From Nitrosomonadales bacterium (GTDB lineage: Bacteria; Pseudomonadota; Gammaproteobacteria; Burkholderiales; Gallionellaceae), in the NCBI GenBank assembly GCA_016218415.1, contig JACRED010000034.1, positions 62,001 through 126,000 on the forward strand: a stretch of 64,000 bases of DNA. Reading direction: 5' to 3'. The notes beneath the pieces were generated by a model. The model was not told where the DNA came from, did not search any database, and was given only the letters and a program-made list of their open reading frames with translations. The position numbers were made by a program, and so were the translations under genes. Shown here one piece after another: positions 1,108-61,733 of the stretch (within the stretch, counting starts at the first letter, position 1; every line of letters starts with the position of its first letter).

Positions 1108-1336
1108 AATATTGATGATGGACGGGCTGATTGCAGGGTGTTGGCGGGTTGCGAAATGAACCTGGAGCCGCAGTGCTTGCACCAAACGGGATTGGAGTAC
1201 AATGGACCGGCATTGCCCGTAGATCGAATCGGAATTCGCTCACGTTTCTGGAAAAAGGATCATGAAAATGATATTTCCACCCCGAGAAATTCGCATCCTG
1301 TCGGCCGCCTCTTTTATATGTTTGCGAGGATCTGTT
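1108..1336. other. Intergenic region before the lipoprotein gene
   Basis: A TTGCAC hexamer (1177-1182) and a TACAAT hexamer (1198-1203) resemble a sigma-70 promoter on the plus strand, but the 15-base spacer is short. Nothing else recognisable is present. Confidence 0.25.
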
Positions 1337-4300
1337 ATGCGTACAGCCATACGTTTTATTGCCGGTCTGGCTGCAGTGTTGGGCATCGCACTGGCGGGGT
1401 GTAGCAGCGGCGGGGGAGGCGGCGGCGGAGGGGGGGCGGGTATCACCGCGACAGCAAACACCACTGCGCAGATCCTGACAGTGGGTACGGCCATGCCAAG
1501 TTTTACGCCATTGACAGCCAGTGGCGGCGCAACTCCCTATACCTACAGTTACACGGGCACGTTACCCGCCGGCCTGACATTTAACACGGCTACCGGCGCT
1601 GTGACGGGCACACCAACCGCAGCCTATGCGACCGCAAGCCTGGTGTTCTCGGTCCAGGATGCCGGCAATGCAGTGGCCAGTACAACCAGCATCGTGAGTT
1701 TTACCGTGGTGACGAGTAACGCTCCCTGCACCAGCCAGACATTGAGCTGGGTACAGAACGGACAGATATGCAGCGCAACTTCCGGCAGCGGAACCTCGGG
1801 GAACCCGGTGTCCCTGACCGACTCGACCGGCACAACCGGCACTGCCAGCTTCACGTGCAACAACGGCAGCTGGGGAGTAGCGGTCAATCCGCTCTGTGCG
1901 GCGGAAGTCATACCTGTCAACGCCACGGTCACGGATGTCCAGATACTGAATACGGGTGTATCGAATCAAAGCAACGTCCCCGTCACCTTCGGTCAGGTAT
2001 TCAGGGCGGGCGATCTGGCCGCCACGGAATCACTGGTGGGAGTCATAGGGACGACTACCGTTCCGTTGCAGGTGGAAGTCAAGGCGACCCATCCTGACGG
2101 TACTGCCCGGCATGCGATCATCTCTGCCATCATCCCGACGGTGACGACCACGCCGCAGCTGATGATTCTTAAAAAGACACCAGCTGCCACCAATACGCCG
2201 GCCAGTCCTGTCGCTTCAGGGTATGCCACAGGGGGCGGCGCCGGGTTCACGGCCAGCGTGAACGTGACCATCGGTGGCGTGCCCTATACCGCCTCCGCAG
2301 ATTCTTTGCTCGCCGGTTCATATTCTCAATGGCTGGGCGGCTCGATCGCCAACGAATGGGAAGTCTCGACCCCGCTGCTCAAGGTGTCGGATGCAAGCCC
2401 GCACCCCAATCTGACGGCTCGCTTCGCGATCAGGGCATATTCCGGACTCAGCAAGGCCAGAGTGGATGTGACGATAGAGAATGATACGGTGGCATGGAAC
2501 GGAACCTCGTTCGGGCCGGCTGCCCAAGCATTCACCTATGATGCCAGCATCGTGGTCGGCGGAACGCCCGTTTATTCGGTTGCCGCGTTGAAGCATTACA
2601 AGAATGCAAGGTGGCGCAAAGTCTATTGGTGGAATGGGGCGCCGGAGGTGGATGTGAAGCCCAACCTGGCGTACTGGATGGCTAGCAAGGCGGTACCCAA
2701 CTACGACACGACGGTGAATCCGGCCCCCGGGATCACATCGTTGAATACCAAATGGACAGCCGCATCTGCAACGACCAACCTGGCGATAGCCGGGCCGACT
2801 TATGTGTCCAGCACGGGTAACTATGTCGGGCAATCGGGCTATACAGCAGACGCCAATAATGCGACCGGGCCGATGGGCATAGGTATCGTCAGTGCTTATA
2901 TGCCGCTGACCGGGGGACGTCCCGAGATTGGCCCGCTCCCGCAGTGGGCTGCGGTCTATATGCTGAGCGGAGATACTTCCGTCAAGAACATCGTCAATGC
3001 TTCCGGCGATCTGGCCGGGGGCTGGCCCATCCATTATCGGGATGCCAATACGGGATTCCCGCTCAGCATCACCGACTATCCATTCGCGGGCATATCGTGC
3101 GGAACGACCAATTGCACCAGGCAGCCAGCCGGAATTGTCTACCAGTTGCCGCTCTGCATTGCCGGTGCCGGAGATTGCACCACGCCATTTGTCCCGGATT
3201 CGGCTCACCAGGCAGCATTAGCTTACCTGCCTTACCTGTTGACGGGCGACTACTATTATCTTGAAGAACTGCAGTTCTGGAGCACTTGGAATTTACTCAA
3301 GGGGACACCGGTGTATCGTCACTTCGACCAGGGATTGGTCGTGTGGGATCAGGTGCGCGGAATGGCTTGGACGATCAGGACGCTTGCGCAGACAGCCGCC
3401 TTTACCCCGGACAGTCAGCTGGGCAGCACGGCCCCCAAGACCTATTACACCAGCCTGATCACCAATAATATCAACTGGTACAATGACTACGCCGCTACCC
3501 ATCCCAGCCAGTTGGGTGCCTTGGGTGACCTGTCTTACCCATCCTATCTATACGATTCCATCACGCGGCCCGCGAAAGACTTTAGCGGAACGGGCATAGG
3601 TGCATTCGTCTACCCCACCCCCGTCACCAGGAATGGCGCGCTTGAAACCGCAACGACCTTTACCGGAACCGGTAGCGGCACTACGCTGACGGCGACCGGC
3701 GTGCTGGGATATATCTACAAAGGCAGCTCTGTCACCGGGACCGGTGTGCCGGCCAACACCACCATCGTTTCGCAAGTCAGCGGTACGACGGGGAGTGATG
3801 GCGTTTACACGACCAACAATGCGACCACATCGAGCGGCAACAGTCTGACTGCCAATATACCGGCCTACACGGGAATCGCACCCTGGCAGGATGACTTTTT
3901 GACCTGGAGTTTCAATAACGCCGTCCAGCTGGGCTATACAAGCGCGACTACGATCGCGAACTTCAAGTCCGCCTTCCCGATAGGCCGGATGACGTCAGGG
4001 GCTGACTTTTGCTGGATAGATGGCGCGCGGTATAACCTGACGTTGCGGGATACCATCGCATCGCCGATGTACTCGACATGGGCTGCGGTGACGGCCGGCA
4101 ACTTCAGCGGGCTGACGGAAGGCGGGGGGTACCTGGCGCAAGGGTGCGGCACTCCAGCGCAGGCAACCTGGCTGAGCAATATCGCTTTTTATACGCTGAA
4201 CGACAACCTGCCTTTTATCACGGGCCAAATGCCAAGATACTCTACCAGTGCGGCAGGCTATCCATCGAATATGCAGCCTGCGCTGGCGGTGTCGGTGGAC

Positions 4301-4402
4301 AATGGCGCCACCAATGCCTCGGCGGCTTGGTTACAATTCCAGGCAAGAACTGTCAAACCGAATTATTCCACTGAACCGCAATGGGCGATCGTACCCAGAT
4401 AG
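1337..4402 (+). CDS. Large surface lipoprotein with Ig-like and RIFT-barrel-like regions
   Basis: I chose the ATG at 1337 (1021 aa) over the upstream in-frame ATG at 1262, because it has a GAGG ribosome site about 8 bases upstream and opens directly into a lipoprotein signal with lipobox LALAGC (Cys22). The lipid cysteine is followed by a run of about nine glycines. Next comes a putative-Ig (He_PIG-like) segment ending in [19 protein letters not shown] later part ([14 protein letters not shown], then [19 protein letters not shown]) resembles the N-terminal RIFT barrel of PcRGLX/exo-rhamnogalacturonan-lyase-like proteins. About 70 residues near 3650-3860 form a Gly/Thr-rich module also seen in the next gene. 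It probably acts on or binds polysaccharide outside the cell; the enzymatic role is inference. Confidence 0.75.
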
Positions 4403-4449
4403 CCAGCAAGATCGATCCAGACATATTTGCATCTGCCGGAGTTGAGGCC

Positions 4450-6999
4450 ATGAACATGAACATACTGCCCCAAAAAATTCGCGTACTGTTCGCGCTGTCG
4501 CTTTCCGCGATCCTGCTGGCTTGCGGTGGGGGCGGCGGAGGTGGGGGCGGTGGCGGCAACACGCTTCCGGTGGTGACCGTGCCCGCCAACTTCGTGGTCC
4601 AGGCAACTGTCCCGGGCGGCATAGCCGTCACATTTACCGCATCCGCGACCGATGCGACGGGCAGCGTGCTGGCCACGACCTGCACGCCCGCATCCGGTTC
4701 TGTTTTTACTGTTGGGGCGCATACCGTGACCTGTTCCGCGACCAACGAGATAGGCACAGGCAGCGCCAGTTTTACCGTGACCGTGCTGGACTCCGCCTTG
4801 CCGGTGGTGACCGTGCCGGCGAATATCGTTGTCGAGGCCGCCGCACCCGGCGGCAACCCGGTTAACTTTACGGCATCCGCAATCGATTCCATCGGTGGCT
4901 CCCTGACTACGACCTGTACGCCCGCGTCCGGCACTACTTTCACTGTCGGGGCGCATACCGTGACCTGTTCCGCGACAAACGCGGTGGGCACCGGCAATGC
5001 CAGTTTTACCGTGACCGTGCAAGATACCACTCCGCCGGTGGTCACTGTCCCGCCCGACATCATCTCCGCAACCAGCATAGTCAACTTTACGGTTACCGCT
5101 TCCGATCTCGTCACGGTTACTCCGACCGTGGCCTGCACCCCGCCGTCCGGCTCCACATTTACTATAAATACTCCCACCACGGTCAACTGTACCGCGACCG
5201 ATGCCGCAGGAAACAGCAGTGCCATCGCCAGCTTCAAAGTGAAATACGTCGCGCGCGGCACGGCCAACCCGATGGATATCTACATCCTGAACAACATGGT
5301 GACTAATCAGTGGAAGCTCTGGACGACCGGCACGGATGGCGGTTTTGCCGGCACAAATGTCACGGCATCGATCACCGGCACGACGATGAGCGTCACGGTG
5401 GCGGCGGCCAATACGCTGGCGCCGGGCCAATTCGTGACCGGCACGGGAGTGGCGGCGGATACGAAGATCACTGCTTTTGGAACTGGCGCGGGCGGTGTTG
5501 GGACTTATACAGTCTCATCCAGCCAAACTGTCTCTTCCGGAGCTATGACAGTAGGCGCATTATTGCCGCGAACCCGTGCAAATTTTGACGGGAACGGCAC
5601 AGGCGCGAACGGTACCTGGGCAAATGATGCGGCCGTTGCGCAGCCGCCCATGATCGGTGTGGGTGGCGCGCAAGGTGTGTGGGCATATTCCAGCGCGGCG
5701 ATCAATCCGCTCACCGGCGATGTGATTATTCAGGGCGGTGGCCATGCGAACTCTGGGGATAGCAGTCTCTATGGCTTGAACCTGACTGCGGGTCCCGGTG
5801 TGGCCTGGTCATTGAAGGTGCCTAGCGCGCGATATATTTCCGCACTCGAGCCCAAGCCCGCCTGGTCATATCAAAAGCCGTCCAACAGTCTTGTTACAAC
5901 CACGGCAACGGGAACTTCCGGAACGAATACGATAACGGTGGCATTGGCCACAGGCATCGCCAACGGCATGTATGTCACCGCCAGTGGCGGCGGCATCCCC
6001 GCAGGTACGACGGGCACGATCAGCGGAACGACAGTGACGCTGTCAAACAATCTGACGGCGACACTGAGCAGTGCACCGGTCAGTTTTTCCAAGGGATATT
6101 GGGCGACCACCAATAAGGATGGTGTGGCGATGCCGATTGCAGTCCACACTTATTCGAGCAATATATTCGGAGGCAACTCCGATGTGTTTTACCTGTCCGG
6201 CCAATTCGGTTTTGACGCGGCTTCATCCACGGGTATGGGCGCAGCCTTTGCTTACAAACCCAGCATGGGACCGGGCTCTGCGGGCATGACAGGCCCCTTG
6301 TTTGTCGCTGCCACTACCGCCTCTCCGTTCAATTACGCGACGACTGCAGGTTATGTGCAACCCTCCAGTACCGGCAACACGATAGGAACAGTTTGCGCGA
6401 ACAGCCACGACGGAAATCTCTATACCTACGGATCGGTTAACGGGCAAAACAAGGGACTCTTGTTGCAAATCCAGAATGCATCGACGTCGCCGACATTCGT
6501 TTACAAGGGGGTCAGCAATATGGGCGGGATACTCGGCTTCCATAGCAACTGTGTGATCTTCAAAGACCCGGTGAATGGTGCGGGCCGCATGTCTTACTTC
6601 ATGCACGATGGCTCCACCAACGCCAACTATGGAATATGGGACGACATCGAAAGCACGCCGCCGGCGCACCCTACTCTCGGCAATTACAACTCTCTGACCT
6701 ATGCGAATGGTTTTCCGATCGCGCCTCCCGCCTCGCCGGGAGCGGCGAATTACCTGTCGTTTGACTACAATACCGACCTGGACGTGATGGCGATGACAGA
6801 CGGGGCGGATATATGGGAGGCGAGTTTCGCGCCTTCGTCCAGAGTCTTGTCCGCCTGGACTAAAATCACCGCAACGGGAGATGTGCCGACAACGGTGGCA
6901 GACCATACTCATCTGCCGCGTTTGGCGTATCTTTCCTTCCCTTACTATTCCTATGTGATGTGCAACTTCCAACAGTGCAGCGTACTGCGCAGGCAGTAG
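4450..6999 (+). CDS. HYR-repeat lipoprotein with probable C-terminal beta-propeller
   Basis: The start is ATG 4450 (or 4456) rather than 4381, because only these give a lipoprotein signal, with lipobox ILLAC (Cys25) followed by about eleven glycines. Three HYR-type repeats follow, each opening with PVVTVP and containing a CTPxSG...TxTVNCTAT core. The C-terminal half has [15 protein letters not shown] and other Gly-rich turns that look like a kelch/galactose-oxidase type propeller, but I cannot name a family. Two copies of a VTGTGVxAxT-type module lie at about 5355-5560 and 5880-6080. It is 47 bases downstream of the previous lipoprotein and probably co-transcribed with it. A surface role in EPS binding or cell adhesion is inference. 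Confidence 0.7.
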
Positions 7000-43781: not shown

Positions 43782-46562
43782 TTAAAGTTGCTTCAGTAAT
43801 GCCCGTGCTTCCTCTATCCGGGCAAAATTCTTTCCTGAAGCCAATAGTTGCTCGAGTTCTTTGCGCGCCTTGGTTTTATCGCCGGATTTAACCAACCCGA
43901 GAACGAGGTGGTAATGGATGTCTGCCACATCCGGGGCAAGAGAGTTGGCTTTTTGCAGCAAAAGTAATCCGCGCGCCGAGTTGCCCTGTTCTATCAGTAT
44001 CCACCCCAGGGTGTCCAGCACCGAGGGATTCTCGGGCAAGATTTGGTTGGCCTTCTCGGCAAATTCCAGTGCAATGGGTTCCTTTTCTTGATGGTATGCC
44101 CAGGCCAGATTATTTAGCGCAGCTGCATTTTGGGGATCATGCTGCAGGACTGCCTGAAATTGCTCGATGGCAGCGCGGTTCTGCTTCTGCGCAAGAAGGG
44201 TTCCGGCAAGATACATGCGCGTTGAGGTGTCTGCAGGGTATTCCTTCAGCCAGTGGTCCATGCGGATAATAGCTTCTTTCCCTTTTCCGGCCTTGTTGAG
44301 TGATGAGTGCAGTTTGACCATCAGTGGCCCGCTTTTGCCGAGGGCGAATGCCTGTTCATAGGCTTTTACTGCCTGCAAAGATTTATTCTGCGCCATCATG
44401 ACATCGCCTTCCAGTACGTAGCCTGTGGGCGCTTTCGCATTTTTACCCTGAATTCTCCGGGCAATGGAGAGGACTCCGTTATAGTTCTGCTGGTTAAATT
44501 CCAGCAATGCCATAGCCAATTGAGCATCCAGATAATCCGGTTGCAATACCAGTGATTTTTTGAGGGCTGCCGATGCAGCCGTCTGGTTTTGCATGGACAT
44601 ATGAACGGTGGCTATCCGAAATTGCGCCAGGGCGGAGTCGGGCTTAATGCTGGCAAGCTTGTTGTAGGTTTCCAAAGCGGCGGGGTTGTCGCCATTAGCG
44701 ATTTGGGCTTGCGCAAGAATATCCATTGCTTCAGGGATATCGGGATTGGAGGCCTGAATTTTTTTTGCGAGAGTGAGCGCTTTCTGCTTTTCACCCAGAT
44801 GCAGATAATTGGCTGCCAGCAGCAAGGCCGGTTGTAGCGCATCCGGATTTTCGTTGCTGGCGCGTTCCAGCCATGCTGTAACCTCCTTGGTTTGTCCTTG
44901 TGATTGAGCGAGGATAGCCAATGCAGTCATGGCCTGAATATTTTTTTTGTCTTTGTCGAGGAACTCCACGAGGCGCTGCTTGGCTACCTCAGGTTTTTTT
45001 TCCTGTTGATCGAGTCGTACCAGGTTCACCACTGCAGGGAAATAAGTGGGCTGGATGGAAAGCGCCTTTTCAAAGCTTGCACGTGCGTCGGCGATATTTT
45101 TTTTGCCGAGATAAGCAGCGCCTTTCAGATTGTAACCAAGGGGGTCCGTAGGCTGCTCTTTAACGATAACATTGGCCGCTGCAAGTGCCTTGTCGTATTC
45201 GTTGAGGCGCAGATGGGTCAGCACCAGCATGATGCCCGCCCTGGGTGATTTGGCATCCAGATCCACCGCCTTTTCCATTTCGGCCACGGCCCGGTCGTTC
45301 TCGCCCAGCGCCAGCTTGCTTAAGCCAAGCGCACTATGGAGTTCTGCCGATTTTGGAGCAAGCGCACTGGCCTTGGCAAAATATTCCGCAGCCTTGGTGT
45401 AGTCGCCAGCCTGCGTATACATATCCCCGGCGAGAGCGAATAGCTGCGGGTCCTGTTGCGCGTCTATCAGTACCGGGGACAGAACATCTATTGCGGACTG
45501 AGCCTGGCGGCTTTTAAGGAAAGTGGATGCCAATAATTTGCGGGCGTACAGATTGTTGGGATCTTTCCCCAGATATTTTTTCAAGTGCTGCTCGGCTTGA
45601 GGCATGGAATCCAGGGCGTATTGCACGGCTCCGGCAAGCAATACGCTGGGCATGTGATCGGGAGCAACGCGCAATATCTGTTGCAGCGATTCCAAGGCGG
45701 CGGCGGGTTTGCCTTGGCTGAAGTCGAGTAAAGCCTGGGTGTAAAAAACAATCAAGCTCTTGGGTGCCGACTTTTTTGCTGCCTCAATATCCGACTTGGC
45801 GGCATCGAAGTTCTTTGTGCCTATTTCCAGATTCGCTTTGGCGACGAGCACCGACACATTGGCAGGTTCTGTTTTTAGAGCCTGTTCATAGGCGGCAAGC
45901 GCGGACTCGCTTTTTCCCTGAGTGCGCAGCAGGTCACCCTTGAATAACCAGGCGTTAATGTTCCTGGGGTCTTGGCTAACTGCTTGTTCGGAAAAGCGTG
46001 TTGCGGAATCAACGTCCTTTTGCAACAAGGAATGTTTGGCCAGCCCGATCAGTGCATCCGAATAGCCCGCATTAATCCCAAGCGCCTGCTGGAAAGCGTT
46101 TTTTGCCTCGTCGTGTTTCGCCAATGCCAAATAAGCATTTCCACGGAATGTTGAGATTTCAGGATCGGTTTGGGCTTCTGGGCTGTCTTTGGTTTCATCC
46201 AGAACTTTCTGGAACAGCCCCTGTGCAAGTAATGCCCTGGCCAAGTCGGGCAATGCTTTGTCGGAGTTCATGCCCAAACTCATGGCTTTTCGGATTTCTT
46301 TCTCGGCCGACTGGGGATCACCAGTTTCATTGTAGAGGGTACCCAGAAGATACCGCGCTTCGGAATCTTTCGGATCCTTCTGCAATGCATTTTTCAACTG
46401 GATGATGGCGGAATTGTTGTCGCCATTCTGGTGATATTTTCTGGCTTCAGAGATCAGGTTCTGTGTACTTTGAGTCTTGCTGCAGGCAGCCAGGCCACAC
46501 ATGAGCAGAAGTGCTCCGGAAGCCATGATTAAAGAGATAGAAATTTTGTTGGCGCTTTGCAT
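43782..46562 (-). CDS. prsT: PEP-CTERM system TPR-repeat lipoprotein
   Basis: The 926 aa protein has a lipoprotein signal with lipobox LAAC (Cys27) and is made almost wholly of tandem TPR-like repeats, e.g. AIIQLKNALQKDPKDSEARYLLGTLY and many degenerate copies. Length and character match the PrsT family (TIGR02917 type), which is part of the PEP-CTERM/XrtA regulon. It may scaffold EPS export or protein sorting. It sits between the PEP-CTERM gene and the VanZ-like gene on the minus strand. Confidence 0.93.
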   Translation of the reverse strand: MQSANKISISLIMASGALLLMCGLAACSKTQSTQNLISEARKYHQNGDNNSAIIQLKNALQKDPKDSEARYLLGTLYNETGDPQSAEKEIRKAMSLGMNSDKALPDLARALLAQGLFQKVLDETKDSPEAQTDPEISTFRGNAYLALAKHDEAKNAFQQALGINAGYSDALIGLAKHSLLQKDVDSATRFSEQAVSQDPRNINAWLFKGDLLRTQGKSESALAAYEQALKTEPANVSVLVAKANLEIGTKNFDAAKSDIEAAKKSAPKSLIVFYTQALLDFSQGKPAAALESLQQILRVAPDHMPSVLLAGAVQYALDSMPQAEQHLKKYLGKDPNNLYARKLLASTFLKSRQAQSAIDVLSPVLIDAQQDPQLFALAGDMYTQAGDYTKAAEYFAKASALAPKSAELHSALGLSKLALGENDRAVAEMEKAVDLDAKSPRAGIMLVLTHLRLNEYDKALAAANVIVKEQPTDPLGYNLKGAAYLGKKNIADARASFEKALSIQPTYFPAVVNLVRLDQQEKKPEVAKQRLVEFLDKDKKNIQAMTALAILAQSQGQTKEVTAWLERASNENPDALQPALLLAANYLHLGEKQKALTLAKKIQASNPDIPEAMDILAQAQIANGDNPAALETYNKLASIKPDSALAQFRIATVHMSMQNQTAASAALKKSLVLQPDYLDAQLAMALLEFNQQNYNGVLSIARRIQGKNAKAPTGYVLEGDVMMAQNKSLQAVKAYEQAFALGKSGPLMVKLHSSLNKAGKGKEAIIRMDHWLKEYPADTSTRMYLAGTLLAQKQNRAAIEQFQAVLQHDPQNAAALNNLAWAYHQEKEPIALEFAEKANQILPENPSVLDTLGWILIEQGNSARGLLLLQKANSLAPDVADIHYHLVLGLVKSGDKTKARKELEQLLASGKNFARIEEARALLKQL

Positions 46563-50977: not shown

Positions 50978-51781
50978 ATGCTTATCAACAAACAGTCCGC
51001 AAAAAATTTAGGTCTGGCGACTCTGCTTTCAGTGACCGCTCTTCCCTTCATGGGCGAGGCATCGGCAACTGCTTTGTTTGATGCGGGGATGCCAGCTGGC
51101 TGGACCTGCACAGGTAACTGCGGCACATCGGGTGCTAACGGTGTGGTGCCCTTGGCACCATCCGGCGGCACCCAATATGGCTGGGTTGCAAGCAACACCG
51201 GAATTTATGGCTTGGGATTACCTGGTGTCGGTGGCACCGACGGATCAAGACTGCAGTCGTCGGTGTTCTCTGCGAGTGCCGGAGATGCGTTGGCGTTCCA
51301 ATTTAATTACGTGACTTCCGACGGAGCCGGGTATGCCGACTACGCTTGGTCGCGTCTCTTGGATTCATCGCTCAATGAGGTGGCGTTGTTATTTACGGCA
51401 CGGACGACCCCGAGTGGTAACAGTGTCCCGGGATTCGGTATGCCCGCGATCGCCGCTACGATCTCGCCTTCGGTGGTGACTATTACCTATGGATCTACTT
51501 GGGCACCGCTGGGTGGTTATTCAGGGGGGTGCTGGAGCACAGGGTGCGGGCACTCAGGTTGGGTTTCGTCAGCATTCAATATCGCATCGTCTGGTAACTA
51601 CATACTGGAGTTTGGCGTCGTGGACTATATCGATGGAATATATGACTCGGGTCTCGCATTCGATGGCATCACGATCGGAGGAAAACCAATCGAGGATATT
51701 CCCGAACCGGCCTCATTGGCACTGTTGGGTATCGGCCTTGCCGGTCTGGGCGCAATGCGTCGTCGCAAGGCAACGTCCTGA
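50978..51781 (+). CDS. PEP-CTERM protein (NF038132-like)
   Basis: I chose ATG 50978 (267 aa) because AGAGGA lies 7 bases upstream; the ATG at 50945 in frame lacks such a site. The N-terminus has a Sec signal ending in GEASA, and the C-terminus a PEP-CTERM tail IPEPASLALLGIGLAGLGAMRRR. The middle has FQFNYVTSDGAGYADYAWSRLLD and a later FDGITIGG, a pattern I know from a PEP-CTERM family of jelly-roll-like proteins. It should be a substrate of XrtA. It has its own sigma-54 promoter and terminator. Confidence 0.92.
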   Translation: MLINKQSAKNLGLATLLSVTALPFMGEASATALFDAGMPAGWTCTGNCGTSGANGVVPLAPSGGTQYGWVASNTGIYGLGLPGVGGTDGSRLQSSVFSASAGDALAFQFNYVTSDGAGYADYAWSRLLDSSLNEVALLFTARTTPSGNSVPGFGMPAIAATISPSVVTITYGSTWAPLGGYSGGCWSTGCGHSGWVSSAFNIASSGNYILEFGVVDYIDGIYDSGLAFDGITIGGKPIEDIPEPASLALLGIGLAGLGAMRRRKATS

Positions 51782-51909: not shown

Positions 51910-52986
51910 CTATTCGGCCTTGGGTGAAATGAATGCCTTGTGGAACAAATGTCGGGCAAGCATTAAAGGCGGCATACGCAGCCAGTTTGCGCGCACATAA
52001 AGCATTCGGCGTGCGACACCGGTCAATCGGTCGGAGCAGCTTGGATGGACCGGCATCAGCGCACGGGAATACAGGCTGTCCATGAGTGAACGCGTCAGCC
52101 AGTTGGGGCTGCCGATGTTAGTCTGCTTGATCACCTCCAGTGGAATCGGAGTATGCAGGAAAAGCCCACTGTAACGTATTGCGTAAAACAACTGGCGCGT
52201 CAATTCGAGTTCCCTTGCGCGCTCGATAAGCTCGGGCCAGAACGACGGTATGTTGCTGAAATGGCGTAACAGACTATCAAGATCGGCCAAGTCACGAAGC
52301 CCGTTATCCAGTTCGGCTTCATGAAATAAGTGGGTAGCGCTGTGCAGAACCATATCAATCGGGGCAAATACCTTCAGGTTGTCATGCCCATCCAGCATAT
52401 GAGCTGCATCACGCAGTTTCTCGGGGGCGGGGTGGGAGTAAGCTGTCTGGGGCAGTATCGCGTGATGCACATCGATCACAGTCGATCTGTTGATATGCCG
52501 CATGGGGGGTAATTCATGCATCCAGGTGCGGTAGTAGCGCTGATCATAAACATCATGATGTGTTGCAGCCCAGCCATGAAGCATCAGGGCGGCTTCCACC
52601 TCATTGAGGCTATCTTTGGGCACCATGATGTCGATATCAGAAAATAGACGCCCGCGTGCTGGCGGTAACTTTGCCATGACATAGGCAGCGCCCTTGAGGA
52701 GAATGATAGGCACACCGATCCTGGCAAGGGCCTTTCGAATCAGGATTACTTCCCATTGAACTGCTTGAATATGTCTTTGTGCGATGACGTGCGAAGATTC
52801 AAGGTGTTCACGAGGTTGCGGTGGTATATGCTCGATTAGTCCACGTTCTTTGCATAAGGCATGAAGATGTGCCAGCAGATTGGAATTTCGAGCTTGGCGC
52901 ACCAACAAGTCCCAGTCGGCAAGACTCAGGGTAGTCAGCGCTTCGGGTTGTCGTAGCGCTTGTAAAATCAGCGGAGGGGAGGTCAC
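51910..52986 (-). CDS. Nucleotidyltransferase family protein of the HPr-rel-A cassette
   Basis: The 358 aa protein has the NTP_transf_5-type (PF14907-like) set: ILLKGAAYVMAKL (Lys-Gly at 98-99), RGRLFSDIDIMVP (metal-binding Asp117 and Asp119), and a later VIDVHHAI. It may transfer a nucleotide or modify a peptide or sugar; the substrate is unknown. It begins right after the HprK-related kinase stop and is the last gene of the minus-strand cassette, which is the usual partner order. Confidence 0.85.
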   Translation of the reverse strand: MTSPPLILQALRQPEALTTLSLADWDLLVRQARNSNLLAHLHALCKERGLIEHIPPQPREHLESSHVIAQRHIQAVQWEVILIRKALARIGVPIILLKGAAYVMAKLPPARGRLFSDIDIMVPKDSLNEVEAALMLHGWAATHHDVYDQRYYRTWMHELPPMRHINRSTVIDVHHAILPQTAYSHPAPEKLRDAAHMLDGHDNLKVFAPIDMVLHSATHLFHEAELDNGLRDLADLDSLLRHFSNIPSFWPELIERARELELTRQLFYAIRYSGLFLHTPIPLEVIKQTNIGSPNWLTRSLMDSLYSRALMPVHPSCSDRLTGVARRMLYVRANWLRMPPLMLARHLFHKAFISPKAE

Positions 52987-52987
52987 G

Positions 52988-53908
52988 TCAAGAGATAGGT
53001 GGCTTTAATGCATCAAATGTCTCAATGGCGTCATCCAAGACACTATAAATAAAATCATAGCACAATGAATCACCAATCAAACCTGCCAGGGTTTCGAAGC
53101 CCTGAGTGCCTAGTTGGCTATAATTAAACGCGTTATCCGCGACGCGCATAAAAGCGCGTGATTGGGGTAAGGCAGTCAAACTGGCTTCTGCGCCAGTTTG
53201 ATATTTCGGGAAAATAAACCAGGCAGCTTGGGCTGTTTCTGTAGCGCGAGCGATACTGTCGGCAGGGGCTTTCATGTGTGCCACCGTGCCCTTCATTGTA
53301 TCGCTGACCTTGCGGCTGAAGATCGCCGTTGGTTCATATCGCTGAATGATGTCTATGGATTGATTTTTTAAGCTGACGGGTCGGGGAAGCGGGCAGATCT
53401 GCCCATTACTGACTCGTATCAGGGCAAGCTCATCCGAAAGCAGGCGCCAACCACGATTCACCAAGGCTGCGCAGAGGGTGCTTTTACCGGAGCCAGGCGG
53501 AGCGGGCAGAATGGCTGCATATCCTCCCTTTTCGACTACGGCCGCATGGATGATCAAATAACGGTTCGCATGACTGGAAACGCACCAATTGAGTCCCCAT
53601 TCGAGCATCGGAAATGCCTGGTCGAGTGGCAAGGGTTTGAATGGTGAATAGCCATCGAACAGAAATTGCACCTGCGGCTTTATCCAGCGCCGAATACCAG
53701 CTGGGCGCGCGAGACTTACATGGAAATCCGCGAAACCTGATTCTTCCGCCAAGGGGTAATCGGCATATAGCAGCCGGATACCGTCAGCCACGCTGGGAAT
53801 CGAAGTTTGCAGGTGAGTGGTGAATGCCCCGGTTTGAAGAAAGATCCCGGCCTGCCTGAGCCGACTTTCCAGTTCCGATGGCGCTAATGTTGAAACATTC
53901 AAAATCAA
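52988..53908 (-). CDS. HprK-related kinase A
   Basis: The 306 aa protein has the HPr-kinase-like core: HAAVVEKGGY, P-loop LPAPPGSGKSTLC (residues 135-146), and LLSDELALIR (acidic metal/catalytic site near 158-160). This matches the HprK-related kinase A family (TIGR04352 type) rather than true HprK, which has an additional N-terminal domain and a different target. Its start overlaps the PqqD-like gene stop by 4 bases. It should phosphorylate an unknown peptide or protein partner, perhaps the gene product at 54238. Confidence 0.9.
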   Translation of the reverse strand: MILNVSTLAPSELESRLRQAGIFLQTGAFTTHLQTSIPSVADGIRLLYADYPLAEESGFADFHVSLARPAGIRRWIKPQVQFLFDGYSPFKPLPLDQAFPMLEWGLNWCVSSHANRYLIIHAAVVEKGGYAAILPAPPGSGKSTLCAALVNRGWRLLSDELALIRVSNGQICPLPRPVSLKNQSIDIIQRYEPTAIFSRKVSDTMKGTVAHMKAPADSIARATETAQAAWFIFPKYQTGAEASLTALPQSRAFMRVADNAFNYSQLGTQGFETLAGLIGDSLCYDFIYSVLDDAIETFDALKPPIS

Positions 53909-54192
53909 GTACGCTCTATGAGAGCCAGCTTATCGAGATCCGCAAGAATACTTTCAATTTGAAAAGCGAGCGCATCATCTGTTTCGGTGGGTAGTTCGTG
54001 AGAAAGAGACTCGATAAGTGTGCTGGTATTTGATGGCGCTTGCAGCAGTTTCAACAAAATTTGAGCGGCCACCCAACTCATCAGGTGTGTATCTCCAGAA
54101 AGGCTGTTGTAGATGACAAATTCGTCGTCCCAGCAACGAAACTTAAGAGCCTGATTGGAAATCAATCGCCACTTTATGGTTGAATCCATCAT
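53905..54192 (-). CDS. HPr-rel-A system PqqD family peptide chaperone
   Basis: The 95 aa protein has a PqqD-like fold: KWRLISNQALKFRCWDDEFVIYNSLSGDTHLMSWVAAQILLKLL, then a helical C-terminal half. PqqD-type proteins bind leader peptides and present them to modifying enzymes (TIGR04353-type). It is coupled to the kinase gene by a 4-base overlap and lies 45 bases downstream of the probable substrate gene. This strongly suggests a peptide-modification system. Confidence 0.9.
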   Translation of the reverse strand: MMDSTIKWRLISNQALKFRCWDDEFVIYNSLSGDTHLMSWVAAQILLKLLQAPSNTSTLIESLSHELPTETDDALAFQIESILADLDKLALIERT

Positions 54193-54237
54193 GGAATAAT
54201 CGCGTGAATATCGGTATTGACGACACGCAAACGAGCA

Positions 54238-54918
54238 CTACAACGGCATCGTGGTTTTTAAGTAATCGACGATATCCTCGGGATACCATTTGACGCCTGC
54301 GGTCGGTTCGAAATACCCATGTGAGTCATATTCATTGAATATGTTTTTGACCTGAGCTTCGGTCAACACCGGAGTCCATCCCTTGCAAGCATTCAGTAAC
54401 GCAGCAACTATGTGAGCCCCAAGCTGGTGCGGGTCTCCTGTTCCACCCAGCAAAAGAACTTGCATCAAGCTGTAGTTTTTGTAAATCGATCCATAGCCAC
54501 TGCAATTGAAAGAATTTTTAAACATCGAGCCGCTCGTAGAACCGGTATTCGACCAACTTTTCACATCTTGCTTGTGTTGGGTATCGGTGCACGAGCCAGA
54601 CTTGTATGGCGACGGCCAATTGTCTCCATGATTGGCCCAATAACCGGGGGTTCTTCCGCCGCAGTGCTGGTCGTTGCTATGCCCACTGGCGTTGCCGGAC
54701 AGGAAGCCGGAAGGGGATTTGCACACTCCACCACCGCCGAATCCCCCCCCGCCTCCAAGTGAAGGCCGGCTGGCGAGAGTAAGCAGAACACCTGATACGA
54801 TCACGCCGGATTTGGCGAAACGCCGGCGCGATTCGTCGATTGATTTGGCTTGAAGTGAAACAGTTTCAGGCAGGACGCAGCCACCAACCTCAACTTTTTG
54901 CTTTTCTTCAGTTTTCAT
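54238..54918 (-). CDS. Candidate substrate of the HPr-rel-A cassette, Tat-type signal, Gly/Cys-containing
   Basis: I chose ATG 54918 (226 aa) with GGGGAA about 5 bases upstream; the frame is open to 54987. After a 29-residue hydrophilic leader there is a twin-arginine motif SRRRFAK followed by SGVIVSGVLLTLA, which fits a Tat signal. A Gly-rich stretch (LGGGGGFGGGGVC) is followed by CKSPSGFLSGNASGH, CGGRTPGYWANHGDNWP, and scattered Cys. The C-terminal part is helical (VAALLNACKGWTPVLTEAQVKNIF). I do not know a named family with certainty but have seen similar proteins in XrtA-bearing betaproteobacteria. It lies first in the cassette with the chaperone, kinase and nucleotidyltransferase. Confidence 0.78.
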   Translation of the reverse strand: MKTEEKQKVEVGGCVLPETVSLQAKSIDESRRRFAKSGVIVSGVLLTLASRPSLGGGGGFGGGGVCKSPSGFLSGNASGHSNDQHCGGRTPGYWANHGDNWPSPYKSGSCTDTQHKQDVKSWSNTGSTSGSMFKNSFNCSGYGSIYKNYSLMQVLLLGGTGDPHQLGAHIVAALLNACKGWTPVLTEAQVKNIFNEYDSHGYFEPTAGVKWYPEDIVDYLKTTMPL

Positions 54919-55394
54919 GGCAATTCCCCGTTGAGACTCCCCCCTTTGCGCGTCACTACACCATACGCGAACTTCCACTGTATCCACAGTTTAGTGGGGA
55001 TTCACAAACCATTATTTATATTCCAAGCCGGTCGCTATCATAGCAACCCCTGCAATAATGACCATTGGACCTTAGTACACCAAGAACAGAATTTCCTAGT
55101 TGCATTGCTAATTCATTGCGCGGTACATTTAGACGGGAATCGGATAATGGGTACTCTGGCATGTACTCTTGATTCAGATATTGTTTTGTTAAAAAACATT
55201 TAGAACTATCGCAATAGTTCCGCACCTCCGATTTTACGGACACCATACTAAGAAATCCGAAAAAGTTCAAGAGGAATGAGCGGGCTTAACATTAGCTGCA
55301 ATGATGTTAATGAAGTTGTATAGTTACGCACGTGTAGGATAAAGGCAATTTGGTTATGGTCCCTGCGGCTGGCACGTGTAATGGAAGGATAATT
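54919..55394. other. Divergent intergenic region
   Basis: An AT-rich region between the cassette and the response-regulator genes. A TGGCATG followed by a non-consensus -12 element at 55157-55173 looks like a weak or decayed sigma-54 site (spacing off by one). Nothing else is recognised. Confidence 0.35.
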
Positions 55395-55928
55395 ATGCAG
55401 TCGATTACGGTGGCAATAGTTGATGATGACGAGGGGCGTCGGGAGAAATTTGAACGCTATCTTCAACACGAACAAGGCATCATGGTGCTGAGGAACGTTG
55501 CGTCAAGTCAAAAAGAAATGTCCGTCGATCGCCGGCTCAATCAACGCTCAAGTATTAGCGACATTGATAATGTCATAGCCAGTGTACGTCGGCTCAATCC
55601 GCGCATATTGCTGGCTAACCTGAAGCAGTGTACGGATGCTGATTGTGCATTGCTGATGTCTCTGCGACGTGAATGTCCGAACACATTTGTGGTTATGTTG
55701 GCCGATGCACCATCTCTACCAGAAGATCAGGTCGTGCAAGCTTTAGAAAGTGGCGCGCGTGGTTACCTGAATATCGAATCGGAATTGCCGCATCTCTCAA
55801 GGGCGGTGCATGTAATTGACCGTGGCGAAGCCTGGGTCCCGCGCAAGATGCTGGGTAAAATAATGAACACAGTGTTGCAATGGTGTCATGGTGGTTCAAT
55901 AGAGGCTCAACTTGATCCTGCTAGCTAG
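55395..55928 (+). CDS. Degenerate receiver-domain response regulator without DNA-binding domain
   Basis: I chose ATG 55395 (177 aa) with AAGGA upstream. The receiver has an intact acidic pocket (VDDDEG, residues 9-14), but the phospho-acceptor position reads ILLANLK (Asn75 in place of Asp), the switch Thr/Ser position is Ala in VVMLADA, and the Lys in GYLNIES is lost. The C-terminus stops just where a NarL-type helix-turn-helix would begin. It may be a pseudo-receiver that works by protein contacts. It overlaps the next regulator by 17 bases. Confidence 0.78.
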   Translation: MQSITVAIVDDDEGRREKFERYLQHEQGIMVLRNVASSQKEMSVDRRLNQRSSISDIDNVIASVRRLNPRILLANLKQCTDADCALLMSLRRECPNTFVVMLADAPSLPEDQVVQALESGARGYLNIESELPHLSRAVHVIDRGEAWVPRKMLGKIMNTVLQWCHGGSIEAQLDPAS

Positions 55929-56610
55929 CTCATCACAGAATATACTCGCCTGTTGGAAACAGGGCATGCGCGGCTGTCCCCAGATATCTTGTGTGGTTAG
56001 TTTGAACTTGCTTAGGGGGGGCTTGGAACAAATCAAGCCGCAAGTGTTGCTTCTTGACTACGACTTGCCGGGATTGGATAGTCTGGCGGGAATTGCCGAA
56101 TTGAGGACATTGAGTCCAGAAACAAAAATTATCGTTTCTAGCCTTGATCTTTCTGATGAGACAGAATGGGAGTTATTCAAGGCGGGTGTGAAGGGGTGTT
56201 GCCCAAAAAACATCGAACCCAAACAACTCAAAAGTGTTGTCGAGGCTGTGCAGCAAGGCGAGTTGTGGATTCGGCGAACAATTACCACTCGCCTGCTGGA
56301 TGAACTGGGTAGAATTGCAGTAGAGAAAAACCAAATAAAACAAGCTGCCAGTGACTTGCTGGCAAACCTGACGCGGCGCGAACATGAAATAGCAACGCTT
56401 GTTGGAAGTGGTGGGAGTAACAAGCAGATCGCGCAACATCTGGCAATTTCAGAACGTACGGTGAAGGCGCATTTGACCGAGATTTTCCGTAAACTGAAAG
56501 TCGCTGATCGGCTAAAACTTGCCTTGATCGTGTCAGGAACCCTGCATACAACCTACCAGGCTGGAATCGAAGAAAACGGCCCATCGGCGCAGCAACTGCA
56601 CAAATTATAA
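55912..56610 (+). CDS. LuxR/NarL-type response regulator with incomplete acidic pocket
   Basis: It starts at TTG 55912 with AGAGG six bases upstream, overlapping the previous gene (232 aa). The receiver has phospho-acceptor Asp49 in VLLLDYDLPG, a Ser in KIIVSSLD, and Lys in CCPKNIE, but its N-terminus reads MILLASSSQN, so the usual acidic pair is absent. The C-terminus has a full LuxR-type HTH (LTRREHEIATLVGSGGSNKQIA, then ISERTVKAHLTEIFRKL). It is translated with the degenerate regulator, and the two lesions are complementary. It may control the neighbouring EPS genes. Confidence 0.85.
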   Translation: MILLASSSQNILACWKQGMRGCPQISCVVSLNLLRGGLEQIKPQVLLLDYDLPGLDSLAGIAELRTLSPETKIIVSSLDLSDETEWELFKAGVKGCCPKNIEPKQLKSVVEAVQQGELWIRRTITTRLLDELGRIAVEKNQIKQAASDLLANLTRREHEIATLVGSGGSNKQIAQHLAISERTVKAHLTEIFRKLKVADRLKLALIVSGTLHTTYQAGIEENGPSAQQLHKL

Positions 56611-58271: not shown

Positions 58272-60350
58272 ATGTTATCAAGCATCGCGGTTATCAGTTA
58301 TTCAATAAATGCTGCGGCATTTATTGTGCTGTCCATACTTTTTCTGACCAGCTGGCGCGGGCGCCTGCACGGCATTGCGCTGACAGTCTCCTGCCTGCTT
58401 ACGGCGATATGGGCTGCGACCATCGCTTTTCAAACCTCCCTTGCGCCCCCCATTTCTTTGCTGACTGACATTCTGGAAATTTTCAGAAATGCAGGCTGGA
58501 CAATTTTTTTTATCATGTTGATTGGGCACTACCCACAAACAGGATTTCCCTCGCCGTTAAAACTGAGACCGTATGTGGTTGCTATCCTGGCGTTTTATCT
58601 TTTGCTGACATTCTGGACCGTTTATTCTTATTGGCTTCCGGAGTTTGCTTCCAGATCTACTGTGTTTGCGACGGGTATCGTTGGACGAGTTGCGCAAGCG
58701 GTTATTGGTATGCTGCTGGTGGAACAGTTATACAGGAACACGCCTATAAAAAATCGATGGGGGATTAAGTTCGCCTGTTTGGGGATTGGCGGGATGTTTG
58801 CTTACGATTTCTATTTGTATAGCGATGCCTTGCTATTCAGAAACGTCAATGAGGAAATCTGGGCTGCACGGGGAGTCGTGAATGCACTGGCCGTTCCCCT
58901 GGTCGCTCTGTCGGCAGCGCGTAATCCCCAATGGTCATTGGAGATATCGGTTTCGCGCCGCATTCTGTTCCACACGGCAGCGCTGTTTGGTTCGGCAACC
59001 TACTTGCTGGTTATGGCGGCAGTCGGCTATTACCTGCGCTTTTTTGGGGGGAGCTGGGGGGCTGTCCTGCAAGTGGCTTTCCTGTTTGGCGCGGTATTTC
59101 TTTTGTTGGGCATACTGTTTTCCGGAATTTTTCGTTCCTGGCTCAAGGTGTTTATCAGCAAGAATTTTTATAGCTACAATTACGATTACCGGGAGGAGTG
59201 GCTGCGGTTTACACGGACACTTGCGCAGGAAGGGTATGGACTGGGTGAAAGAGCCATACAGGCTGTCGCTGAGTTGGTGGAAAGTCCGGGCGGGGCTTTG
59301 TTCATGTGCCGTGACTCCGGGAATTGCGAGCTCGTGACTCGCTGGAATATGTCGTTGGCCATTGGCTCGGAACCCCTGAATAGCATATTTTGCCAGTATC
59401 TTGAAAATAAACAGTGGGTGATAGACATTCAGGAATACAGCGCAAATCCGGAAAAATACGAATCCATTCCGATGCCGCACTGGTTGCGCAATTACCCGCT
59501 GGCATGGCTGATCGTCCCCCTGGTTTTGCATGGAAAGTTGCTGGGGTTTGTTGTGCTTGTGCATCCCAGAAGCAAAATAAAATTGAACTGGGAGGTGATC
59601 GACCTGCTTAAAATTGCCGGGAGCCAGGCGGCAAGTTTCCTTGCGCAGCAGGAATCGGATAACGCGCTCATGATCGCGCGCCAGTTTGAATCCTTCAATC
59701 GTATGTCCACATTCGTGGTGCACGACCTTAAAAATCTGGTTTCCCAATTGTCGCTGCTACTCTCCAATGCGGCCAAACACAAAGATAATCCGGAATTCCA
59801 GAAGGACATGATAGACACGGTTGATCTTTCGATTCAGAAAATGAAGCGGCTCCTTGAAAAGTTGAGTAGTGGGAATTCTGTGGAAAAGCCCGTTCCGTTC
59901 CGGATTGAAGATCTGTTGCAAAAGGCGGTAGCAGCAAAATCCACAGCCGAACCGAAGCCGAAACTCGAGATATTGCATCATGGTATGGAGGTGTTGGCCA
60001 ACTGGGCCAGCCTTGAACGGGTGATCGGGCATCTGATTCAGAACGCCATAGAAGCCACGCCCAAAGATGGGCAAATAGTGGTTAGCCTGGACAAGGGAGA
60101 TGGTACAGTAATCATTGCGATTAAAGACACAGGGCATGGCATGAGTGCCGAGTTCATGAACGAAAGGTTGTTCAAACCGTTTGAATCAACCAAAATTGCG
60201 GGTATGGGGATAGGTGTATTCGAGAGCCATGAATATGCCCGCGAACTTGGCGGCCGATTGGAGGTCGTCAGCAGCAATGAAAACGGCACCACGTTTCGTA
60301 TGATCTTGCCATCTCATCATCAAAAGCATGAGGATGTGCAGACACATTAG
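58272..60350 (+). CDS. prsK: XrtA/PEP-CTERM system histidine kinase
   Basis: The 692 aa protein has about eight N-terminal membrane segments, a GAF-like middle region (residues about 310-450), the phospho-acceptor His484 in FVVHDLKNLVSQ, and an ATPase domain with the N box (LIQNAIEATPKDGQ) and GHGMSAEF/GMGIGVF. It matches the PrsK family (TIGR02916 type). It senses an unknown signal, presumably at the membrane, and passes phosphate to PrsR encoded 15 bases downstream. Confidence 0.95.
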   Translation: MLSSIAVISYSINAAAFIVLSILFLTSWRGRLHGIALTVSCLLTAIWAATIAFQTSLAPPISLLTDILEIFRNAGWTIFFIMLIGHYPQTGFPSPLKLRPYVVAILAFYLLLTFWTVYSYWLPEFASRSTVFATGIVGRVAQAVIGMLLVEQLYRNTPIKNRWGIKFACLGIGGMFAYDFYLYSDALLFRNVNEEIWAARGVVNALAVPLVALSAARNPQWSLEISVSRRILFHTAALFGSATYLLVMAAVGYYLRFFGGSWGAVLQVAFLFGAVFLLLGILFSGIFRSWLKVFISKNFYSYNYDYREEWLRFTRTLAQEGYGLGERAIQAVAELVESPGGALFMCRDSGNCELVTRWNMSLAIGSEPLNSIFCQYLENKQWVIDIQEYSANPEKYESIPMPHWLRNYPLAWLIVPLVLHGKLLGFVVLVHPRSKIKLNWEVIDLLKIAGSQAASFLAQQESDNALMIARQFESFNRMSTFVVHDLKNLVSQLSLLLSNAAKHKDNPEFQKDMIDTVDLSIQKMKRLLEKLSSGNSVEKPVPFRIEDLLQKAVAAKSTAEPKPKLEILHHGMEVLANWASLERVIGHLIQNAIEATPKDGQIVVSLDKGDGTVIIAIKDTGHGMSAEFMNERLFKPFESTKIAGMGIGVFESHEYARELGGRLEVVSSNENGTTFRMILPSHHQKHEDVQTH

Positions 60351-60365
60351 TGCATCGGAAACCGC

Positions 60366-61733
60366 GTGAGCAAAGACAAAAAAAATCTGTTAATCATTGA
60401 AGATGACCCCGGTTTGCAAAAACAGCTGCGCTGGAGTTTTGATGCCTACAACGTACTTGTCGCCGGAGATCGGGACAGTGCGCTTGCGCATATTCGACGA
60501 CATGAGCCGGCAGTGGTTACCATGGATCTTGGCCTGCCTCCCGACCCGGATGGCGCATCTGAGGGGTTGGCCACGCTGCAACAAATACTCGCGCTTGCCC
60601 CCGACACCAAATTAATTGTTCTGACCGGCAATCAGGATCACGGCAATGCCGTGAAAGCCATCGGTCTGGGTGCTTACGATTTTCACCAGAAGCCGTGTGA
60701 TCCCGAGATGCTTGCGCTGGTAGTCGAAAGAGCCTTCCGTCTTCATGCATTGCAACAGGAGAACCGCAAGCTGCGCGAGACCCATGCGGATTCCCCACTC
60801 TCAGGAATCATAAGCCGCGATCCTGCTGTGCTAAAGCTGTGCCGCAACATCGAGAAAGTGGCGCCCTCTGATGTCACGGTTATGTTGCTCGGTGACAGTG
60901 GTACCGGGAAAGAGGTGCTGGCAAAAGCTTTGCACCAATTGAGCCCCAGGCAGGCCAAGCGTTTCATCGCGATCAATTGCGCGGCGATACCGGAAAACCT
61001 GCTGGAAAGCGAATTGTTCGGCTACGAGAAGGGGGCTTATACCGGCGCAGCCAAACAGACCATGGGTAAAATCGAGCTGGCCAATGGCGGGACATTTTTC
61101 CTCGATGAAGTGGGCGATCTGCCCATGGCACTGCAGGCCAAGCTGTTGCGCTTTCTGCAGGAAAGAGTCATTGAAAGAGTGGGCGGGCGTGAAGAGATTC
61201 CGGTCAATGTGCGCATCGTCTGCGCGACACATCAGAATCTCAAGGAACTCATCGTAGCGGGACGATTCCGCGAAGATCTGTTTTATCGTCTGAGCGAGAT
61301 CGTGGTTTCGATTCCGCCGTTGCGTGCGAGAGTAGGAGACGCAGCTTTGCTGGCACATCATTTCAAAAACAAGTTCAGTTCCCAGGAGGTGCGTCCCTCA
61401 ATGGGTTTCAGTGCGGAGGCCATGACAGCAATAGAGAGTTACCCATGGCCGGGAAATGTGAGGGAAATGGAAAATTGTATCAAGCGCGCAGTGATTATGG
61501 CGGAGGGGCCATTGATCAACGCCGAGGATCTTGGGCTTGCAATTTCCATTGCGGCTGAAGAACCCATCAATCTTCGCCAGGTGCGTGATGACGCAGAACA
61601 CAAGGCTGTGTTGAAGGCATTGGCGCGGGTGGATGGCAATATCACCAAGGCGGCAGAATTGCTCGGTGTCAGCCGCCCGACAATTTATGACCTGATGGGC
61701 CGTTATGGAATAAGTTATGGAACCTCAGAATGA
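60366..61733 (+). CDS. prsR: XrtA/PEP-CTERM sigma-54-dependent response regulator
   Basis: It starts with GTG at 60366 (455 aa). Receiver: Asp54 in VVTMDLGLPPD. AAA+ domain: Walker A LLGDSGTGKEVLAKAL, sigma-54 contact loop GAYTGA (residues 223-228; Tyr in place of Phe of GAFTGA), Walker B GTFFLDEVGDLP. C-terminal Fis-type HTH: GNITKAAELLGVSRPTIYDLM. It matches the PrsR family (TIGR02915 type). Sigma-54 promoters are present ahead of both PEP-CTERM genes in the window, which are probable targets. Confidence 0.95.
   Translation: MSKDKKNLLIIEDDPGLQKQLRWSFDAYNVLVAGDRDSALAHIRRHEPAVVTMDLGLPPDPDGASEGLATLQQILALAPDTKLIVLTGNQDHGNAVKAIGLGAYDFHQKPCDPEMLALVVERAFRLHALQQENRKLRETHADSPLSGIISRDPAVLKLCRNIEKVAPSDVTVMLLGDSGTGKEVLAKALHQLSPRQAKRFIAINCAAIPENLLESELFGYEKGAYTGAAKQTMGKIELANGGTFFLDEVGDLPMALQAKLLRFLQERVIERVGGREEIPVNVRIVCATHQNLKELIVAGRFREDLFYRLSEIVVSIPPLRARVGDAALLAHHFKNKFSSQEVRPSMGFSAEAMTAIESYPWPGNVREMENCIKRAVIMAEGPLINAEDLGLAISIAAEEPINLRQVRDDAEHKAVLKALARVDGNITKAAELLGVSRPTIYDLMGRYGISYGTSE

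Follow-up and report, generated by a model that had tools for sequence, protein, structure and literature searches.

A cassette for an HprK-related kinase, a PqqD-like chaperone, and a nucleotidyltransferase with a candidate exported substrate in a Nitrosomonadales bacterium

A stretch of 64,000 nucleotides from a Nitrosomonadales bacterium of the Gallionellaceae (GenBank assembly GCA_016218415.1, contig JACRED010000034.1, positions 62,001 to 126,000; the "window") carries a cassette of four genes. They encode a candidate substrate (S), a protein resembling PqqD and the RiPP recognition elements (RRE) of ribosomally synthesized and posttranslationally modified peptides (RiPPs) (Q), an HprK-related kinase (K), and an NTP_transf_5 protein (N). 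The distribution of these genes supports that S and the trio Q-K-N belong together and form one unit. The cassette is best read, with moderate probability, as a leader-guided tagging system in which Q would hold the leader of S, K would phosphorylate a serine residue of S, N would cap the phosphate, and S would be exported. For a cassette already named in NCBIfam, this provides a family of candidate targets with two candidate acceptor serines, a proposed mechanism that has biochemical precedents, and a genome-wide link to exosortase A.

Co-occurrence of the four genes

The original prediction had named S the natural substrate candidate of the trio. The co-occurrence test of S with Q, K, and N upheld this choice, leaving S by far the best candidate at the level of loci as well as genomes. 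For the locus test, related loci were fetched with K from GTDB genomes, and the best 80 of 282 relatives, which are hence near the K of the window, were used. Profiles from a first round were run on these loci with their 12,322 open reading frames (ORFs) of at least 35 amino acids (aa), a match being counted within 2.5 kb of K; the S profile comprised 76 S proteins, 75 of the tested loci plus that of the window, and was thus run on the same loci. N was found in all 80 loci and Q and S in 78 each, and there was no match for N, Q, or S elsewhere in these loci at E values up to 0.01. The loci without S or Q were L013, with K and N only, and L016, with K starting 177 bases from the contig end. All cassette genes found in the 80 loci and the window share the strand of K. 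Among the 40 largest gene clusters, those of S, Q, K, and N alone were common to more than 20 of the 80 loci, the clustering procedure splitting or dropping overlapping ORFs in GC-rich loci. The joint recurrence of the four genes in Beta- and Gammaproteobacteria and in Malonomonas indicates more than chance.

The genome test covered 369 genomes of the class, which are related to one another. A total of 41, including the genome of the window, were K-bearing, that is, over the curated cut-off of TIGR04352; matches at E values up to 1e-3 occurred in 181 of the 369 genomes and were not counted unless over this cut-off. The N-terminal part of S (profile A1) was present in 34 of the 41 K-bearing genomes compared to 5 of the 328 others (Fisher P = 8.7e-36, relatedness ignored). 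Four genomes matching only the C-terminal domain of S (G015, G080, G099, and G215) were left out of this count, and one match containing stop codons (G057) is among the 34. Six of the seven missed K-bearing genomes contain a divergent S with a twin-arginine leader close to Q and K (L094, L109, and L142 to L145; E values from 0.0077 to 1.5e-5), so that with these weak matches an S-like protein occurs in 40 of 41; in the seventh, G259, 640 bases separate K from the end of its contig. The five genomes with S and without K over the cut-off contain short leader peptides and a sub-cut-off HprK-like kinase on a shared contig.

Arrangement of the cassette

The minus-strand order S-Q-K-N, the 4-base overlap, and the 1-base gap described in the original prediction were borne out by ORFs (Table 1). 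The overlap is that of Q and K, given the TTG codon at position 53908 as start of K, and the 1-base gap separates K and N; between S and Q there are 45 bases. The longest ORF for S starts with GTG at position 54987, and the ATG at position 54918 was preferred because many homologues align there. A scan for promoters and terminators was uninformative (4 promoter-like sites, 3.9 expected; 6 terminator-like sites, 3.5 expected).

Table 1. Features of the cassette, with positions in the window
Feature	Position	Strand	Basis
S, candidate substrate, 226 aa, exported: leader, Ser loop, and TPGYW domain	54238..54918	-	Alignment; no Pfam or NCBIfam family
Twin-arginine-type leader of S, residues 30-55, SRRRFAKSG...LTLASRPSLG	54754..54831	-	Conservation; Tat-type motif
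Cys66-Cys86 loop of S with Ser70, Ser74, and Ser78, predicted acceptor region	54661..54723	-	Conservation
Folded C-terminal domain of S, residues 90-226, TPGYW type	54241..54651	-	AlphaFold model
Q, predicted PqqD-family (RRE-like) peptide-binding protein	53905..54192	-	TIGR04353, 51.6 bits, cut-off 35
K, HprK-related kinase A, TTG start	52988..53908	-	TIGR04352, 409.9 bits, cut-off 200
P-loop of K, PPGSGKST, residues 137-144	53477..53500	-	Sequence; conservation
N, NTP_transf_5 nucleotidyltransferase, GTG start	51910..52986	-	PF14907, 184.3 bits, cut-off 31.2
Metal-binding-type DxD of N, D117 and D119	52630..52638	-	Both in 81/81 N proteins

The enzymes K, Q, and N

The identities originally assigned to the trio, an HPr-rel-A kinase, a PqqD-like chaperone, and an NTP_transf_5 protein, agree with scores over the cut-offs of the respective models, and the clear P-loop noted in K is accompanied by catalytic-type residues as in HprK. 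Residues H121, K142, D159, and E160 were identical in 81 of 81 K proteins, as were G139, G141, K142, S143, and T144 of the P-loop, and H121, K142, and D159 were still invariant in 13 more diverse kinases that included the K of the window. Aligned with a solved HprK, K shows the catalytic residues in register at an E value of 0.26, which is not significant alone. A profile of the 13 kinases matched HprK 1ko7 in the PDB at an E value of 5.7e-5, with other P-loop proteins scoring too.

This relationship, with the conserved His, Lys, and Asp, would also suit a reversible regulatory switch, with K acting on S as an HprK/P-like kinase and phosphorylase and not as a maturation enzyme. Such a switch is very unlikely: the export leader means that S would leave the cytoplasm, Q and N would go unexplained, and K reached only 16.5 bits against the cut-off of 240 of TIGR00679, the equivalog model of HPr(Ser) kinase/phosphatase, for which reason it was rejected as a true HPr kinase.

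The structural model of N has a pLDDT of 93, and the nearest solved folds are the nucleotidyltransferases MenT1, CdnE, and ANT(2'')-Ia (probability, 0.98 to 1.00); a sequence search of the PDB with N gave no match up to an E value of 1. The DxD motif is invariant. Fusions occur in two loci: in L158 (7135 to 8328), a kinase with an N-terminal PqqD-like part, composed of TIGR04353-like and kinase segments, is followed by an NTP_transf_5-like gene, and the same order is found in L159 (1559 to 2803), where the PqqD-like stretch was recognized by alignment.

The candidate substrate S

The S protein has a poorly conserved start, a twin-arginine leader, a loop between two conserved cysteine residues, and a folded domain. 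The leader pattern of the family is SRRxFxKxG ... LTLxSRPVLA, with R31 and R32 each in 77, T47 in 75, and S50 in 77 of 79 S proteins. From its motif in front of a hydrophobic stretch, we take it to be a leader of the twin-arginine translocation (Tat) type. TatC is present in the genome of the window, and relatives matched the TAT models below the cut-off only.

The only residues unchanged in all 79 S proteins are Ser70 and Ser74, followed by Trp101 (78), Cys66 (77), Cys86 (76), and Ser78 (74). In the AlphaFold model, block means of the pLDDT range between 85 and 98 from residue 91 on, whereas residues 61 to 80 reach 67 and 62, with a short helix drawn at residues 69 to 74. The position of the two invariant serines in a low-confidence stretch beside a well-folded domain would suit recognition by an enzyme, or a modification site, rather than maintenance of the fold. 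S also contains an N-x-S sequon (N76-x-S78); N76 occurs in 64 of the 79 proteins and is less conserved than the serines.

No match to S of the window was found in NCBIfam or Pfam, and single members of the 47 S proteins of alignment A1 weakly match single families of these databases at most (best E value, 0.019). With the S domain, the fold search of the PDB returned no fold match (7 matches; best E value, 3.9), and the sequence search with S gave nothing better than an E value of 0.55. S as a target of PEP-CTERM sorting was rejected, as neither S of the window nor the 47 A1 proteins have a C-terminal PEP-CTERM signal according to Pfam and NCBIfam. A second substrate in the genome of the window was likewise dismissed: there is one S only, the other match, at an E value of 0.287, being at chance level.

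A TPGYW-type domain without the leader is part of other proteins with signal-peptide-like N termini, such as a protein of 475 aa in L141 (523 to 1950), in which no Pfam model covers this part, and in L163. S thus looks modular, with leader and Ser loop as a tag and the domain as cargo. Directly behind the leader, the glycine stretch of S, mostly gaps in the alignment of relatives, is encoded with a run of eight G on the minus strand (54743 to 54750); this run could slip and switch the S gene on and off.

Genomic location and the link to exosortase A

The original prediction had placed the cassette beside an exosortase A locus. This is real in the window, where the cassette lies inside an exosortase A/exopolysaccharide (EPS) locus with exosortase A (XrtA) at position 31538 (335.6 bits), PrsT at 43782, PrsK at 58272, and a PEP-CTERM-box response regulator at 60366, and the association extends to whole genomes, but many cassettes lie elsewhere. 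XrtA was over its cut-off in 35 of the 41 K-bearing genomes compared to 38 of the 328 others (P = 1.4e-22). A permutation within families that show both K-bearing and K-free genomes gave a P value of 0.009 for the 31 genomes of 12 families, which were hand-picked among those listed. K and XrtA were on one contig in 14 genomes and within about 110 kb of each other in 12 of these. In flanks of up to 10 kb, 28 of the 80 loci have strong EPS/Prs neighbors, defined as PrsT over 600, PrsK over 800, or a chain-length protein over 600 bits. PrsR was discarded as an EPS marker, as the Thiobacillus matches near 266 bits are general sigma-54 regulators, one of them NtrC.

These neighborhoods might also mean that the trio acts on a sugar or exopolysaccharide intermediate belonging to the exosortase A locus, which it would phosphorylate and nucleotidylate, with S as an exported structural protein of the matrix. 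The location of the window cassette, the XrtA counts, and the 28 EPS/Prs loci would agree with such a function. It is nevertheless unlikely: in Thiobacillus-type loci, the recurrent neighbors are the housekeeping genes prmC, prfA, hemA, and ntrC (gene clusters, with names confirmed on representatives), and S, Q, K, and N still stay together there; 6 of the 41 K-bearing genomes have no XrtA over the cut-off; and sugar chemistry offers no evident role for a PqqD-type protein. Under leader-guided tagging of S, the exosortase A link would point to a role of S in the envelope or matrix.

Other neighbors were noted. Directly upstream of S, on the other strand, are two consecutive regulator-like ORFs, recognized by eye (55350 to 56610). 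Directly beyond N, on the opposite strand, a PEP-CTERM protein (NF038132, 260.3 bits; 50981 to 51781) is likely an exosortase substrate. Farther away, two long lipoprotein-like ORFs (1262 to 4402 and 4381 to 6999) contain runs of 9 and 11 Gly, which begin directly or two residues behind an N-terminal Cys. In the related loci, a Sel1/SLT transglycosylase gene is near the cassette in 14 of 80, 11 of them EPS/Prs loci, and a trypsin-like peptidase gene in 17, 15 of them EPS/Prs loci. The peptidase gene, assigned to PF13365 on one representative, is 2 to 3 kb upstream of K in 15 loci (for example, L025, 7346 to 8170) and about 5.7 kb downstream in 2, and its product could cut the leader or S. Neither gene has a relative among the window ORFs of at least 90 aa.

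Other types of S and a possible small product

A phylum sample of 299 genomes contained 51 with K over the cut-off, from which 20 loci were fetched. Profiles detected a leader-bearing protein next to K in 14 of these, and inspection by eye added three more, L192 to L194, assigned from leader and position; that of L192 also matches at an E value of 0.031. The S proteins of these three loci end in GFTCFASLQMPRG. A second type of S, formed by ten of the leader-bearing proteins from this sample, contains [ST]CWxS[FL] at or near its end, with Ser before Cys just after the leader in 10 of 10. Cys-x-x-Ser plus a hydrophobic or small residue recurs in many S types but not in all of them (as Cys-x-x-x-Ser for the window and as CTISG for Thiobacillus), and L142, L094, and L096 have no C-terminal motif of the Cys-x-x-Ser type. 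The serine of such motifs may, as a hypothesis drawn from sequences, be the common acceptor.

In nine loci, L146 to L154, short leader peptides of 57 to 105 aa follow the pattern SRRxFxKKxAYxAPxxLTLxAxPxxA and then GS. Five of them (L146, L147, L148, L150, and L152) also contain a sub-cut-off HprK-like kinase (TIGR04352). These peptides are possibly a separate class of small phosphopeptides.

S itself may be the precursor of a RiPP, a short piece behind the leader being cut out after modification as a small product. RRE, kinase, and nucleotidyltransferase are tailoring partners of lasso peptides in the published work cited below; sub-cut-off kinases are beside leader peptides of 57 to 87 aa in five loci, two of which have two or three such peptides; and the trypsin-like peptidase gene is near the cassette in 17 loci. 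This possibility is unlikely: in the window and close relatives, S includes a folded domain of some 135 aa that is conserved. The lasso protease PF13471 was not found in the window's genome, which is 85.9% complete, and the trypsin-like peptidase is missing from most loci.

Proposed mechanism

In the favored sequence of events, S would be made with its twin-arginine-type leader, which Q as an RRE would hold and present. K would phosphorylate a serine in the loop behind the leader, Ser70 and/or Ser74, perhaps Ser78. N would cap the phosphoserine with a nucleotide or lead to a sugar-phosphate there. Since nucleoside triphosphate-dependent enzymes act in the cytoplasm, S should be modified before its export, and Tat would suit a folded, already modified S. 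The decorated protein would then be exported, probably in a folded state through Tat. Beyond the inner membrane, its TPGYW domain would act in the envelope or the matrix of exosortase A bacteria.

Several observations weigh against this mechanism. The fold match of N is at the superfamily level only, with a best E value of 2.5e-3 and none of 1e-3 or lower, and E160 of K is at the position of the second Asp of the lasso kinases. None of the TAT signal models fires on S of the window or on the 47 A1 proteins. The set of genes is incomplete in some loci: L013, a Nitrosospira metagenome-assembled genome, has neither Q nor S near K and N; no leader-bearing protein was seen in the stretches examined of L187 (K only), L190 (K and N), and L195 (Q, K, and N); Q had no match in L191 and L156, and N none in L188. 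In six loci, L107, L109, L143, L144, L145, and L155, N is on the opposite strand. The conserved serine of other S types is elsewhere, often near the C terminus in CWxS[FL], so the acceptor is not uniform. Finally, the data on PsmN, the nucleotidyltransferase on which the last modification step is modeled, came from heterologous expression in Escherichia coli, and nucleotidylation followed by the action of a host glycosyltransferase is left as a possibility in two reviews (PMC9266682, PMC8498205).

A wider proposal would regard the cassette as one example of a general tagging pathway. Proteins with a common leader would receive, before export, a phosphoserine, which the nucleotidyltransferase would convert to a nucleotide or sugar diester on a serine beside a cysteine; the tag would be a covalent link between protein and exopolysaccharide or surface in exosortase A bacteria, and TPGYW, CWxS, and short-peptide cargo would share one type of machine. 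We regard this extension as speculative and rather improbable.

Comparison with known systems

No study of this cassette was found among open-license PMC papers, either under the family names or among the titles listed for related topics. The closest named system is the HPr-rel-A system of NCBIfam, with the kinase TIGR04352 and the PqqD family peptide chaperone TIGR04353, to which K and Q belong according to the curated cut-offs. In the window, N (PF14907) adjoins these two genes and the substrate-like S is beside the trio; both are criteria of this analysis, as NTP_transf_5 does not appear in the model names and no NCBIfam model identifies S, or any of ten other proteins tested, as a substrate. 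The next best kinase model for K, ScmC (TIGR04249) of the SynChlorMet cassette, reached 29.1 bits and is far below its cut-off of 125. Compared to HPr kinase/phosphorylase, the His, P-loop Lys, and Asp of K line up with 1ko7, with E160 as the second acid, but K is not the equivalog and its genetic context differs.

The original prediction regarded the chemistry of the proposed modification as not described. This was not supported, since the lasso peptide literature contains precedents for RRE-aided phosphorylation of serine and for a nucleotidyltransferase linked to hexose on phosphoserine. In PMC10368454, the bsf lasso cluster contains the kinase BsfK, which phosphorylates Ser3 of the core, the RRE BsfB1, which accelerates this reaction, and the predicted nucleotidyltransferase BsfN; the core alone is no substrate. 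According to the reviews PMC9266682 and PMC8498205, the Ser phosphorylated by PadeK, ThcoK, and SyanK is C-terminal, and PsmK and PsmN give rise to phospho- and hexosyl-phosphoserine, PsmN being tied to one or two hexoses; the capping step suggested here for N follows what is proposed for PsmN. Rumen lasso clusters listing HPr kinase, PqqD, and an uncharacterized nucleotidyltransferase appear in PMC7533575.

An HprK-type kinase, a PqqD-type RRE, and a nucleotidyltransferase are shared between the lasso systems (BsfK/BsfB1/BsfN and PsmK/PsmN) and the trio K, Q, and N. The differences concern the target, the kinase, and the remaining genes. The known lasso sites, in these same sources, are a C-terminal Ser or, in a short core, Ser3, whereas the target here would be an exported protein of 226 aa that includes a folded domain; K has Glu in place of the second catalytic Asp of the lasso kinases; and the B2 leader peptidase, PF13471 (Transglut_core3), is the lasso protease that was not found in the genome, 85.9% complete. 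Lasso cyclase-type PF00733 gave three matches in this genome, two in the window more than 20 kb from the cassette and a short one on another contig. Because PF13471 was not found, the cassette was not filed as a lasso cluster, nor was it filed as HprK/P; the trio is of a known kind, K and Q being named in NCBIfam. The novelty, as far as the literature found allows a statement, lies in the candidate substrate family with its invariant serines, modules, and types, as well as in the association with exosortase A across genomes. If the proposed mechanism is true, the kinase, RRE, and nucleotidyltransferase toolkit of lasso peptides would also decorate exported proteins.

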